The notes under the pieces were generated by a model. That model had not been told where the DNA came from and did no database searches. It saw only the letters and a list, made by a program, of their open reading frames with translations. Of a stretch of 64,000 nucleotides of DNA, positions 25,620 to 31,173 are shown piece by piece. The stretch spans positions 1,736,001 through 1,800,000 of the forward strand of contig NC_011529.1 of assembly GCF_000018365.1 (NCBI RefSeq), read 5' to 3'. The stretch is from Thermococcus onnurineus NA1 (GTDB lineage Archaea > Methanobacteriota_B > Thermococci > Thermococcales > Thermococcaceae). The position numbers and the translations under genes are program-made. Within the stretch, counting starts at the first letter, position 1. The number at the start of each line of letters is the position of its first letter.

Positions 25620-27254
25620 ATGGCCCAGCTCGCGGGACAGCCAGTTGTTATTCTGCCTGAGGGAACCCAGAGGTATGTTGGAAGGGATGCCCAGAGGCTC
25701 AACATCCTGGCCGCTAGGATAGTCGCCGAGACCATCAGGACCACCCTCGGTCCGAAGGGTATGGACAAGATGCTCGTCGACAGCCTCGGCGACATCGTCA
25801 TCACCAACGACGGTGCCACCATCCTCGACGAGATGGACATACAGCACCCTGCTGCTAAGATGATGGTCGAGGTTGCTAAGACCCAGGACAAGGAGGCCGG
25901 TGATGGTACCACCACTGCCGTCGTCATCGCTGGCGAGCTCCTCAGGAAGGCTGAGGAGCTCATCGACCAGAACATCCACCCGAGCATTGTCATCAAGGGT
26001 TATGCTTTAGCTGCCGAGAAGGCCCAGCAGATCCTCGACGAGATCGCCAAGGACGTTGACGTCGAGGACAAGGAGGTCCTCAAGAAGGCTGCAGTGACCT
26101 CCATCACCGGTAAGGCCGCCGAGGAGGAGAGGGAGTACCTCGCCGAGATAGCTGTCGAGGCCGTCAAGCAGGTCGCCGAGAAGGTCGGCGACAAGTACAA
26201 GGTCGACCTCGACAACATCAAGTTCGAGAAGAAGGAGGGCGGCAGCGTTAAGGAGACCCAGCTCATCAGGGGTGTCGTCATCGACAAGGAGGTCGTCCAC
26301 CCAGGCATGCCGAAGAGGGTTGAGAACGCTAAGATTGCCCTCATCAACGAGGCCCTCGAGGTCAAGGAGACCGAGACCGACGCCGAGATCAGGATCACCA
26401 GCCCGGAGCAGCTCCAGGCCTTCCTCGAGCAGGAGGAGCGCATGCTCCGCGAGATGGTCGAGAAGATCAAGGAGGTCGGCGCCAACGTCGTCTTCGTCCA
26501 GAAGGGTATTGATGACCTTGCTCAGCACTACCTGGCCAAGTACGGTATCCTCGCCGTCAGGCGCGTTAAGAAGAGCGACATGGAGAAACTCGCCAAGGCC
26601 ACCGGTGCCAAGATAGTCACCAACATCCGCGACCTCACCAGCGAAGACCTCGGTGAGGCCGAGCTCGTCGAGCAGAGGAAGGTCGCCGGCGAGAACATGA
26701 TCTTCGTCGAGGGTTGCAAGAACCCGAAGGCCGTCACCGTCCTCATCAGGGGCGGTACCGAGCACGTCGTTGACGAGGTCGAAAGGGCCCTCGAGGACGC
26801 CGTCAAGGTCGTCAAGGACATCGTCGAGGACGGCAAGATCGTCGCTGCCGGCGGTGCTCCGGAGATCGAGCTCGCCATCAGGCTCGACGAGTACGCCAAG
26901 GAGGTCGGTGGCAAGGAGCAGCTCGCCATCGAGGCCTTCGCTGAGGCCCTCAAGGTTATCCCGAGGACCCTCGCCGAGAACGCCGGTCTCGACCCGGTCG
27001 AGACCCTCGTGAAGGTCATCGCCGCCCACAAGGAGAAGGGCCCGACCATCGGTGTCGATGTCTTCGAGGGCGAGCCAGCCGACATGCTCGAGAAGGGCGT
27101 CATCGCCCCGGCCAGGGTTCCGAAGCAGGCCATCAAGAGCGCCAGCGAAGCTGCCATAATGATCCTCAGAATCGACGACGTCATCGCCGCCAGCAAGCTT
27201 GAGAAGGACAAGGGAGACAAGGGCGGCGACGACTTCGGCAGCGACCTTGACTGA
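25620..27254 (+). CDS. thermosome (group II chaperonin) subunit
   Basis: 544 residues. It has the ATPase motifs [48 protein letters not shown] and GGAPEIELA, and a charged tail [17 protein letters not shown] of the kind seen in the CpkB subunit of T. kodakarensis. Subunits form double-ring ATP-driven folding chambers in the cytosol. Codon use is strongly biased to C/G third positions, as expected of an abundant protein, and this also creates long antisense open frames that are not genes. Whether a second subunit exists elsewhere cannot be seen. Confidence 0.96.
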
Positions 27255-27284: not shown

Positions 27285-27377
27285 CTGTTCTCCAACTTTT
27301 GGCTGGGCTTCCCTATGGCAAGCCTTTTTTAAAGAACCTTCCATTCTCAACTGGAGATAAACCTAAGGGTGTTTTCC

Positions 27378-28445
27378 ATGAGGGTCATAGGCGTCGATCC
27401 CGGAACGAAGAGCTTCGACGTTATAGGGCTTGAAGACGGGAGGATAAAGCTTGACCTTACCTTCCCGAGTGAAGTGGTCGCAGAGGCACCTGAAAAGATT
27501 GTCAAGGCCATTGAGGACTTCAATGCCGATCTTATAATTGGGCCCTCAGGCTACGGAGTCCCGCTGAAGCACATAAGCGAGCTGACAGACAGAGACCGCT
27601 TCGAGATGACGCTCGTGAGAGAGGAGGAGATGAAGGAAATCCCTGTCCTCATCGGGTTACAAAAGATGGTAAGCGAGATGGCTGAGAAGGGCATGAACGT
27701 CTGGTTCATCCCTGGCGTTATCCACCTCCCGACGGTGCCGGAGTGGAGAAAGTACAACAAGGTTGACATGGGAACGGCCGATAAGATGGCGATAACAGTG
27801 CTCGGTATCCACGACCAAGCGAAAAGGTTCGGAACCGAGTACAGTGAAGTTTCATTCGTCCTCCTTGAGGTAGGTTTCGGCTACAACTACGCCGGAGCGG
27901 TTAAAGGCGGAAAAATCGTTGATGGCATCGGCGGAACCATTTTCCCCGGTCCGGCCTACGTGAACAGCGGCGCCCTCGACGGCGAAGTTGCCTACCTTAT
28001 GGGAGGGGTCAAGAAGTGGCACCTCTTCTGGGGCGGAGCTACGGTAATAGCCGCCAACGAGATACTCCCGCCGGAGGAGTTTGCCAAGAGGCTCGACGAA
28101 GAACCGTTCGCAAAGGCTTGGGAGGCCATGAAGGACGGCTTCTTAAAGGCCGTTGCGAGCGAGCTGGCCGTTGTGGGCAACGCTAAGGAGATAATTCTCT
28201 CCGGCAGGCTGATGCGCATAGACGAGCTCAGAAAGGACGTGGAAGACCTCTTCGAGGAGCGCTTTGGACTTCCCGTCGTCAAGCAGAGGGGTCTTGAGGG
28301 CAGGGCTAAGGAAGCCGCCCAGGGGAGCGCGATAATAGCGGACGGCCTCGCCGGCGGAGGGTTCAAAGGCTTAGTGGAGCACGTTGAGATAAAGAAGAGC
28401 CGCGGGAGTGTTCTTGAGTACGTGAAGCTTCCGCTGGAGGTCTGA
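27378..28445 (+). CDS. DUF1464 family protein (ASKHA-fold)
   Basis: 355 residues from the ATG at 27378 with GGGTG upstream. It opens VIGVDPGTKSFDVIGLEDG, an acetate-kinase/Hsp70-type phosphate loop, and has GATVIAANEILPPEEFAKRL and IILSGRLMRIDELRKDVEDLF later, the second adenosine-binding motif. The family is conserved in archaea and has been loosely labelled butyrate kinase-like, but no substrate is established. A TATA box (TTTTTTAAAG, 27325-27334) shows it has its own promoter. Confidence 0.85.
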   Translation: MRVIGVDPGTKSFDVIGLEDGRIKLDLTFPSEVVAEAPEKIVKAIEDFNADLIIGPSGYGVPLKHISELTDRDRFEMTLVREEEMKEIPVLIGLQKMVSEMAEKGMNVWFIPGVIHLPTVPEWRKYNKVDMGTADKMAITVLGIHDQAKRFGTEYSEVSFVLLEVGFGYNYAGAVKGGKIVDGIGGTIFPGPAYVNSGALDGEVAYLMGGVKKWHLFWGGATVIAANEILPPEEFAKRLDEEPFAKAWEAMKDGFLKAVASELAVVGNAKEIILSGRLMRIDELRKDVEDLFEERFGLPVVKQRGLEGRAKEAAQGSAIIADGLAGGGFKGLVEHVEIKKSRGSVLEYVKLPLEV

Positions 28446-28692
28446 CTTTACCCTTCTTTTAGGGCTCCTATTTCACTATTTAGGTATGAGTGTCCCAGCT
28501 CTGCCCCACGTCCTTCTCATTACTACTCTCCTCGTTATGCGCTTTGGTTCGGGCTTCCAGGAATAGTCCTTGGAACAATCTCATTCTGACTGTAGATCTT
28601 TGGGATAGGATTCTACCTGGAGGTGAGGATGAGGGAGCCCGTTGGAACTATAAAACTCTCCAACATACCTGTGGCGGGTCTACTGTGTTCTT
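28446..28692. other. spacer with promoter ahead of the cysteine-rich protein gene
   Basis: A good TATA-like CTATAAAAC occurs at 28648-28656. Twenty bases before it, GGAGGTGA precedes an ATG at 28629 that opens a 37-codon frame (MREPVGTIKLSNIPVAGLLCSF...) ending at 28742. This frame is out of phase with the main gene; it may be the original N-terminus split off by a frameshift. Confidence 0.4.
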
Positions 28693-29724
28693 TTGTTCAG
28701 TCTTTTACTCTCCCTTCTTTTGACTCACTCTCGTCGTTTTGAATATTGTTGGAAATTGAAAATGATGACGAAAAACGGAACTGATTCAAATGACAGGGGA
28801 CAACTCCAGCTTAACATTACTTGGGTGAATCAAACAATAGACTTCGCGAACTTGACGAACTCTTCATGCTCTTGTTATAATTCAAGCTCTTGCAGTGCTT
28901 TGAACTTGACTGCTGACCTCAACGTTTCCGTGGTCACGTTTTATAACATGAGTGAAAAGCACGAGCAGTTACTGTTCTTTGGGGTTAGTCTCTACAATGA
29001 GACGTTTAATTACACGATGTACGCGCTCGTTTACAAGGCCGAGAGGAGTCAGTATAACTTCACTTTGGTCACGAGAATCTTCACTGATTCTGAGACTGGT
29101 GAGTACAAGGTCTATCTAACTGGAATGAATATAGCTCCGAAGGATGAGGATAAAGCTCTTCCTGTGGGGGACACAATCCTCACTACTGACAACCTGACCC
29201 TTTCGGAGTACTACTGGACGCTGAACAAGGTTCTCGTGAAGCTTAGGCATGGGGACGAGACGAACTGGATCTGGGACAGAACTGCATACGAGCTAAGACA
29301 CTTATCGCACTTGGTGAGGCTTAAGCTTTCGGAGTACAATGGAGAGGCAAACTTGGGATACACCATAGTTCTTGACGACTATTCAGCATGCGTTCACCTC
29401 TGCGACTTAGCATGTACAGCATCTTTCACACTTGTGTGTATAGCTGCGGCGGAAAGCGGAGGGGTGCTCTCACTCATATGCTTTGCAGGAGGATTTATAT
29501 GCTCGGGTCTTTGTGGCTATATGTGTGGACAAGGCATTAGTAGTATATTTGCGGGAGGATCTTGCTCTACCGTATGCTCTAAGGGGCTAGAAAAAGCTTG
29601 TGCAAGTAGATGTGGAATACTGGGAAGTGTCTGCGCAGATGCCTGTGGAGCAGTTTTAGCTCCTGTGTTTTGCCCGCAATTCTGTGATGCTCTACCCTAC
29701 ATCATTAAGGCTTTATTTTCGTGA
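28693..29724 (+). CDS. halocin C8-like cysteine-rich secreted protein, putative archaeocin
   Basis: 343 codons from a TTG at 28693; ATG codons at 28762 and 28765 are alternatives and the true start is unsure. Residues 30-170 contain about a dozen N-x-S/T sequons, the mark of a secreted, heavily glycosylated region. Residues 233-336 form a small, Gly/Ala-rich hydrophobic domain with 16 cysteines (CVHLCDLAC, GGFICSGLCGYMC, CSTVC, CASRC, VCADAC, CPQFC). This composition recalls halocin C8, a ten-cysteine peptide antibiotic cut from the C-terminus of a larger precursor whose N-terminal part gives immunity. Homology is inferred from pattern, not alignment. A multi-spanning membrane gene follows. 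Confidence 0.65.
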   Translation: MFSLLLSLLLTHSRRFEYCWKLKMMTKNGTDSNDRGQLQLNITWVNQTIDFANLTNSSCSCYNSSSCSALNLTADLNVSVVTFYNMSEKHEQLLFFGVSLYNETFNYTMYALVYKAERSQYNFTLVTRIFTDSETGEYKVYLTGMNIAPKDEDKALPVGDTILTTDNLTLSEYYWTLNKVLVKLRHGDETNWIWDRTAYELRHLSHLVRLKLSEYNGEANLGYTIVLDDYSACVHLCDLACTASFTLVCIAAAESGGVLSLICFAGGFICSGLCGYMCGQGISSIFAGGSCSTVCSKGLEKACASRCGILGSVCADACGAVLAPVFCPQFCDALPYIIKALFS

Positions 29725-29780
29725 TATTCTCCCAACTTTTTAAATTTCAATTTTTTGAATAGGTAACGAGGGGATTTAAA

Positions 29781-30572
29781 ATGAAGCCCGGGCGGAAGTT
29801 GGTGCTGGAAGCTGTCTTGGGTCCTTTGGTGTTCTGGGTTATTATGTGGGGGTTGTTCTACATTCATCCAACTCCCGACCTTCGGCGGGAGAATTTCAAT
29901 GCTCCTTGGTTGATGACGTCGGTGGCTTCATTCTTCGTTGCTCTGACGATAGCCCTTTTCATGCTCAAAAGACGATTGGAGAAGGAGCATAATTCCAAAT
30001 TCGGATTTAGAGAGCTTCCCCGGGTTATCGATGAGACTGACCCTGAGGTTATCCGGGACTTGACGAAGGACATCAGTTTTATCATTCTAATGTGGGGCCC
30101 CTTTGCCTCGGCTGTCCTGGATATGGGGGTTGAGAGAGGTGTGGTTTATTTCCTTGACTTCGCCGTGCAGTGTGTAATGGTTTGTGTTCCCCTGTTTCTT
30201 GCGATAGGGGTGCTGTTTATAGACTTCCCCATCTTTCTCTACGCACGTTTCATTGGAAAGGACTCCTCGCCGGGTTCCAGGGAGATTCTCCTCGGTTCCC
30301 TCATCTCACTCGTTTCTCTGGTTGCGGTGGGTGTGGCTACCAGCTTCAACGTTCGCGTTGAGGCAACACTCCCCATTCTGAATCTTCCCAGTGAGGACCC
30401 AGTAGAATATAGGTACGTTCTGTTGCTCTCGGGCTTGAACGTGCTTTACAGCCTCTTGGGAATGCTCGTCTATCCCAAGAAGAGAAAACTCGGTCTTTTA
30501 CTCTCCCTTCCCATCGTCCCACTCATCGCGTACACTCTGCTGAAGACGCTCGTGTGGATGCAATCTCATTAA
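29781..30572 (+). CDS. polytopic membrane protein, possible immunity or export partner
   Basis: 263 residues with about seven hydrophobic spans (near residues 10-28, 44-62, 102-120, 132-160, 175-195, 218-235, 240-258) and a charged cytosolic loop around residues 65-95. No known family was recognised. It follows the cysteine-rich gene by 56 bases on the same strand. An AT-rich stretch, CTTTTTAAAT at about 29737, could be its own promoter, and GGGGAT lies before its ATG. Position next to an archaeocin-like gene suggests producer immunity, but this is only a guess by association. Confidence 0.7.
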   Translation: MKPGRKLVLEAVLGPLVFWVIMWGLFYIHPTPDLRRENFNAPWLMTSVASFFVALTIALFMLKRRLEKEHNSKFGFRELPRVIDETDPEVIRDLTKDISFIILMWGPFASAVLDMGVERGVVYFLDFAVQCVMVCVPLFLAIGVLFIDFPIFLYARFIGKDSSPGSREILLGSLISLVSLVAVGVATSFNVRVEATLPILNLPSEDPVEYRYVLLLSGLNVLYSLLGMLVYPKKRKLGLLLSLPIVPLIAYTLLKTLVWMQSH

Positions 30573-30585
30573 GGGCAAGTGGCGT

Positions 30586-31173
30586 TTATAACTTCTCGAC
30601 CTCTTCCTCCAACCTCTTCAGCTTCCCCTTAAACCTTCTCACCTGCTCGTTCGCGATGTCCACGATTCTCTCGATGTAATCCTCGCTCACCCAGAGCTCG
30701 CCATCCGCGCCGAGCGGAACGTCCATTCTCTCCGTCGAGCGAATCTCAACGAGCAGTTTCTTGTGGCTCACGCTCTTGATGTTGCTGTACTTGAAGCCCA
30801 GTCCGATGGCAAGGTTTAGTAGTTTAACCGCGCCCTCCATCGTCCTCGCGCCGACGTGCAGGATAGGGCTCCTTACGAGAAACCAGAGCTGACCGCTGGA
30901 GTGCTTTTTGATAGCTTCAAGGACTTCCCCGAGCTCGACTTCCCGGTGCCACTTGCCGAGCCAGGCGGCGTTGACCTTGTCTCCAAATTCGGGCATCTCC
31001 ATTACCGAAATCCTTCCGGAGCAGGAGGACGTTGTGAAGTAGTTCTCAAGCGAGTTTATCTTCTCCAAGAGCGGAATTATGTCCTCATCCACCTTGCCCT
31101 CTTCCAGTGCCTTCCTAAGGCCTGCCATCGCCCTGGCCTTCTGCTCGTCGAAGTTCTTGGTAAATAGGAACAT
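30586..31173 (-). CDS. taw3: tRNA-Phe wybutosine pathway methyltransferase Taw3 (TYW3)
   Basis: 195 residues. The N-terminal part has NYFTTSSCSGRISVME, the S-x-S-S-C-S-G-R block of TYW3, followed by WLGKWHREVE and the LWFLVRSPILHVGARTMEGAVKLLNLAIGLGFKYSNI core. TYW3 methylates N4 of the tricyclic base at position 37 of tRNA-Phe using SAM. Taw1, which makes the base, is encoded at 59105-60091 in the same window. The helicase gene ends six bases before it, so they are co-transcribed. Confidence 0.92.
   Translation of the reverse strand: MFLFTKNFDEQKARAMAGLRKALEEGKVDEDIIPLLEKINSLENYFTTSSCSGRISVMEMPEFGDKVNAAWLGKWHREVELGEVLEAIKKHSSGQLWFLVRSPILHVGARTMEGAVKLLNLAIGLGFKYSNIKSVSHKKLLVEIRSTERMDVPLGADGELWVSEDYIERIVDIANEQVRRFKGKLKRLEEEVEKL

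Follow-up and report, generated by a model that had tools for sequence, protein, structure and literature searches.

What is the role of a small gene pair, one member rich in cysteine and the other coding for a membrane protein, that lies between the thermosome gene and taw3 in Thermococcus onnurineus NA1? In a preliminary description of the stretch of 64,000 nucleotides analysed here (positions 1,736,001 to 1,800,000 of NC_011529.1, called the window below), the pair was proposed to be a halocin C8-like archaeocin with its immunity protein; to our knowledge, hardly any weapons that hyperthermophilic archaea use against each other are known. In our analysis the pair quite probably belongs to a polymorphic archaeocin system with cognate membrane immunity, of which the window copy would have decayed to immunity only, the activity being predicted. 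The archaeocin idea holds up for the family, in which halocin C8 tails and paired membrane proteins are found, but fails for the window copy as it was drawn.

As listed in Table 1, the first gene consists of a carrier and a tail. Its ORF codes for 20 cysteines in total, 16 of which lie at residues 233-331; with the cysteine frequency of 0.72% in the long ORFs of the window, 0.8 would be expected per 114 residues and the probability of 16 or more is about 3e-16, so that the C-terminal region of 16 cysteines noticed earlier is indeed present and far above chance. In the alignment of class-A tails (n=11), to which the window tail belongs, all 16 cysteines are conserved. Since dN/dS between the window gene and its relatives is about 0.1 for carrier and tail alike, gene 1 is real coding sequence. 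The sequon density described for the N-terminal part is confirmed by 13 N-x-S/T motifs in the ORF, one of which, at residue 28, falls inside an N-terminus that is not genuine (see below). Database searches gave little for this gene: neither the window proteins nor the carrier have a Pfam, NCBIfam or PADLOC match above noise, PHROGs likewise yielded nothing beyond noise for the window proteins, the PDB sequence search with gene 1 gave no match, and its AlphaFold2 model (pLDDT 45) is too poor to interpret.

Table 1. Features of the locus and its borders, in window coordinates
Feature	Position	Strand	Basis or remark
Thermosome (Cpn60_TCP1), upstream border of insertion site	25620-27254	+	Pfam PF00118
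DUF1464 protein, upstream neighbour	27369-28445	+	Pfam PF07318; at the site in some species only
Relic of the conserved promoter-proximal upstream region	28684-28790	+	aligned with upstream DNA of family loci
ORF of gene 1	28693-29724	+	TTG start, 343 aa
Residues 1-32 of the gene-1 ORF, fortuitous translation of promoter-region DNA	28693-28788	+	alignment, carrier profile
Deletion junction	28788-28792	.	about 213 nt missing compared with L074, the nearest relative
Remnant of the constant carrier domain, with many N-glycosylation sequons	28789-29340	+	sequence comparison
Linker between carrier and tail, GEANLGYTIVLDD, likely processing region	29341-29379	+	carrier similarity stops, class-specific tail starts
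Class-A tail, 114 aa, 16 Cys, candidate disulphide-rich archaeocin peptide	29380-29724	+	
TATA-like CTTTTTAAATTT, intergenic, ahead of gene 2	29736-29747	+	read from sequence
GAGGGG, ribosome-binding-like, ahead of gene 2	29768-29773	+	read from sequence
ORF of gene 2, polytopic membrane protein, candidate class-A immunity protein (subfamily a)	29781-30572	+	ATG start, 263 aa
taw3 (TYW3 methyltransferase), downstream border of insertion site	30586-31173	-	Pfam PF02676

Relatives of gene 1 are present in 29 of the 94 genomes of the order, and among the 115 searchable genomes of the phylum the carrier is limited to three genera of one family, the Thermococcaceae. A scan of genome contigs gave matches in only three named Thermococcus MAGs; no relative was found on viral contigs, and plasmids gave no match to a class-D tail as query. 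Most matches of the relatives stop at query residue 230-300, from which an architecture with a variable tail was recognised: a signal peptide, a constant carrier, some 230 residues long and rich in glycosylation sites, and an exchangeable cysteine-rich C-terminal peptide. For comparison 47 loci were extracted with their surroundings. Most of their tails contain between 6 and 20 cysteines, and the count is even in 44 of the 45 tails. As automatic clustering lumped unrelated cysteine-rich tails together, we read the sequences by eye and sorted them into ten classes (A-J). Carriers and tails do not travel together: L089 and L092 have carriers 94% identical and unrelated tails, and in L075 and L080 tails 99% identical sit on carriers only 57% identical. 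As judged by such identities, the exchange of tails between carriers is recent in places. A stretch of some 100 bp of non-coding DNA ahead of the TATA box is unusually well conserved, at 70-89% across all tail classes (about 35 loci), with only two substantial copies in the genome of the window; it is possibly a regulatory element or a homology for recombination.

The likeness to halocin C8 has to be stated differently for the window and for the family. Against the halocin C8 model TIGR04449, neither the window protein nor its isolated tail gave a match even at E<=10, and aligning the class-A tail with the halocin C8 domain by hhalign gave probabilities of 1-16% over 27-28 columns, where shuffled columns reach 4%. 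A direct membership of the window tail in the halocin C8 family was rejected on these two results. In six relatives with the same carrier, in contrast to the window, the tail exceeds the curated cut-off of 24 bits, for example with 33.1 and 45.8 bits in L085 and L091, and one of the six (L076) occupies the very chromosomal site of the window. These class-D tails are the only match to a known domain in the system, which means that some species have the carrier as a halocin-C8-type precursor, whereas in others it bears different peptides. In common with halocin C8, then, there is a secreted precursor that ends in a cysteine-rich hydrophobic peptide; the window tail differs by being longer and outside the model, and the signal peptide, found in 33 of the 47 carrier-family loci, is deleted from the window copy. 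The N-terminal part of the halocin C8 precursor is reportedly the immunity protein. As the carrier is constant across ten tail classes while the tails vary, it is hardly a tail-specific immunity protein, and in Thermococcaceae it is a separate membrane protein that tracks the tail. For halocin C8, by contrast, a single gene directs production as well as immunity, as Sun et al. 2005 (cited in PMC12893001) report in their title. A second type of precursor, likewise ending in a halocin C8-like tail, adjoins a gene like that of S-methyl-5'-thioadenosine phosphorylase in three Thermococcus genomes (L128, L129 and L130, in G018, G072 and G070), followed by another small membrane protein; apart from the signal peptide, no relation between this type and the carrier was detected.

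The 5' end of the window gene is where the copy departs most from its family. The relic upstream region aligns at 70-89%, mostly about 75-89%, with non-coding upstream DNA of nearly all family members, so residues 1-32 of the ORF are translated promoter DNA, and carrier codons start only at about 28790, directly after it; the carrier profile matches the window only from position 48 of 230. In L074, a class-E locus with the nearest carrier, the matches to the window stop at 593 and restart at 806 while the window is continuous, and the segment thus missing holds, in relatives, the TATA box, the start codon and the signal peptide. The ORF of the preliminary description therefore exists, but its start is not genuine and the signal peptide of the family is gone. 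Without promoter, start and signal peptide the protein is probably neither displayed outside the cell, as had been supposed, nor secreted, and immunity is most likely the only use for which the genome retains the cassette. Along the branch of the window carrier, 18-22 nonsynonymous changes are found per 19-26 synonymous ones, against 6-10 per 24-27 on the sister branch of L074; selection on the window carrier, as estimated from these counts, is relaxed but far from neutral. Since the frame has stayed open over more than 300 codons and dN/dS is well below 1, the loss of function would be recent or incomplete. A small ORF with a GTG start (28490-28723) crosses the relic promoter region and bears no sign of being a gene.

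The other copy in this genome is damaged as well. Compared by eye with L075, the tail of this class-B locus (L062) is shorter by 64 residues and has lost 12 of the 20 cysteines. In L062 (3021-3866, at about 79.0-79.9 kb of C1 in the same genome) the 64 residues were lost in frame, and the partner gene is full-length (326 aa); behind it lie two further partner-like genes, one class-D1-like and one class-F-like (families 7 and 11). The genome thus has two damaged toxin genes, each with an intact partner, the state to be expected of a strain that is immune but does not produce.

Could the truncated copy instead be a silent donor cassette, whose tail and immunity gene are recombined onto an expressed carrier? 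Orphan modules have been proposed as recombination donors for the polymorphic toxins of bacteria, and 14 of the 47 carriers have no in-frame 5' end, some of them lying at contig ends. Among truncated carriers, L078 (class F) and L101/L102 (class C) hold intact tails with the matching next gene, and tail swapping among carriers is demonstrated by the comparisons above. We nevertheless regard a donor role as unlikely, for no swap from a silent donor was seen within a genome, the raised rate of amino-acid change points to decay, and immunity alone explains why the cassette is retained. Even less probable is a window copy that still works, being transcribed from an upstream promoter and exported by the segment FSLLLSLLL after the TTG as an active class-A archaeocin. 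Its open frame, its complete set of tail cysteines and its low dN/dS would agree with such a role; the family TATA box, ribosome-binding region, start and signal peptide are deleted, however, the first residues match non-coding DNA, FSLLLSLLL is short with no clear cleavage site after it, and amino-acid change is raised on the window branch.

Gene 2, on the other side, appears sound. It has 7 hydrophobic spans by hydropathy and codes for a 7-8-span membrane protein, whose structure model is all-helical at low-to-moderate confidence (pLDDT 66). That it is a polytopic membrane protein of no known family, as first described, stands: there is no match in Pfam, PHROGs or PADLOC and a match at noise level only in NCBIfam, Foldseek and the PDB sequence search returned nothing, and no similarity to known immunity proteins was detected. 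The lack of a known immunity relative, together with the lack of detectable halocin C8 similarity in class-A tails, speaks against our reading. The TATA-like and ribosome-binding-like motifs ahead of the gene (29736-29773) form a possible independent promoter, which is putative.

For each locus the partner, the gene behind the tail, was taken as the longest same-strand ORF starting -120 to +300 nt from the toxin stop, ignoring the tail class, and partners were clustered by BLAST. A partner family is shared in 112 of 116 same-class locus pairs against one cross-class pair, whereas in 5000 shuffles of the labels the mean was 12.7 and the maximum 37; not all same-class loci are independent, some being closely related. 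Restricted to carriers at least 85% identical, the partner is shared in 36/36 pairs with the same tail and in 0/39 with different tails, hence carrier relatedness does not explain the coupling. At least two hydrophobic spans are predicted for the partner in 40 of 46 loci. In class A a membrane protein follows 13 of the 13 genes found, and its family tracks the tail class; thus, although the window tail has no halocin profile, the pairing of the two genes is clearly conserved in related genomes. Even within class A, partner subtype seems to follow tail subtype: by eye, tails that start with YSACVHLC precede subfamily a or b and most tails that start with YS[AG]CSH[LI]C precede subfamily c. In L065, L066, L070 and L075 a single class-A toxin gene has two to four tandem genes of family 0, the class-A partner family, behind it, and these belong to three diverged subfamilies (a, b, c).

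Wherever a class-A tail or its remnant occurs (15 genomes), family-0 genes accompany it, and in six further genomes such genes or fragments of them are present without a class-A tail, as would be expected of immunity. The window locus is flanked by the thermosome gene, with the DUF1464 gene, and by taw3, and in other species this interval holds cassettes of class A, B, C, D (halocin C8), G or H; in L104, L105, L111 and L112 it holds family-0 genes and no intact toxin, with a class-A tail remnant beside them in L111. A second recurrent site lies behind cbf5, where L062 is found. More distant relatives of gene 2 (25-30% identity) occur without any carrier in L113-L121 and in the genome of the window itself (C1:1672188-1672946), several of them near an isoleucyl-tRNA synthetase-like gene, and in L118 with a class-B partner-like gene nearby; these may form an older collection of orphan immunity genes.

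A strict covariation of peptide and partner would arise equally from a ligand and its receptor, the tail being then a secreted pherotype or kin marker and the membrane protein a receptor of the ComX/ComP type. We think such a signalling pair very improbable, as the partners belong to many unrelated families of about 80 to 330 aa with no recognisable conserved signalling domain, they pile up without the peptide, which fits immunity better than reception, and several tails match a family named for an antimicrobial peptide. A surface glycoprotein whose cysteine-rich tail anchors in or modifies the membrane, with the downstream protein as assembly factor, would agree with the secreted sequon-rich carrier, the hydrophobic tail and the membrane partner, but it is hardly credible, as it does not explain why ten unrelated tail classes have matching partners that are themselves unrelated, why partners occur as orphans and why some tails are of the halocin C8 type.

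Returning to the archaeocin system, we propose the following mechanism, which builds on the architecture, the tail exchange, the coupling of tail and partner, the shared sites and the truncation, all taken from sequence comparison, and for its single steps on what is established for halocins and polymorphic toxins. In an intact member, a precursor made of the constant glycosylated carrier and a disulphide-rich hydrophobic end peptide would be exported through a Sec-type signal peptide, and an extracellular protease would probably cut the tail off at the linker. The freed peptide may then act on the membranes of competing Thermococcales and kill them, while the downstream membrane protein, specific to the peptide class, would protect the producer. 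Tail and immunity gene would travel as a cassette between carriers and between the two recurrent sites, and the window cassette is of class A, with its 16-cysteine tail and family-0 candidate immunity gene.

Such an organisation resembles the polymorphic toxin systems of bacteria and archaea (Zhang et al. 2012, cited in PMC6393860) in its constant carrier with an exchangeable C-terminal toxin module, the cognate immunity gene directly downstream (paired by sequence and presumed to confer immunity), the orphan immunity genes and the truncated orphan toxin modules. It differs from them in that the carrier is small and has no known toxin, trafficking or pre-toxin domain, the modules are predicted disulphide-rich peptides and not enzymes, and the immunity proteins are predicted membrane proteins. 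The VARTIG modules of Thermococcales (PMC8416519) also form hypervariable loci with exchange of a C-terminal region, but these are large immunoglobulin-domain proteins (arCOG07710); for window gene 1 the Pfam search gave no domain, and PMC8416519 makes no mention of halocin. For the putative processing at the linker, HmHapP/HFX_0892 serves as a model, a haloarchaeal antimicrobial freed from its secreted precursor by an extracellular serine protease (PMC12893001); there the active part is N-terminal and helical, and the available text of PMC12893001 reports neither a polymorphic tail nor a paired immunity gene.

We know of no earlier description of a cassette-exchanging archaeocin system in Thermococcaceae. 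Since NCBIfam already recognises class D as halocin C8-like, such Thermococcus peptides are implicit in the databases; the polymorphic carrier, the other tail classes and the paired immunity genes were not found in our literature search, outside of which the 2019 mBio survey (10.1128/mBio.00715-19) lay. It seems fairly likely that the Thermococcaceae have such a system, in which one glycosylated carrier would serve ten or more unrelated disulphide-rich peptides, every one of them matched by a membrane immunity protein of its own and swapped at two recurrent sites; orphan immunity genes would be kept in banks, and some producers, as in this genome, would be disarmed. If this is true, about 47 precursor loci in 29 species would provide predicted toxin-immunity pairs for genetically tractable Thermococcus, and a set of candidate heat-stable disulphide-rich peptides with 6-20 cysteines. 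Moreover, it would be a clean archaeal case of an arms race, in which the carrier stays constant, tail and immunity are swapped jointly, and producers decay into immune non-producers.
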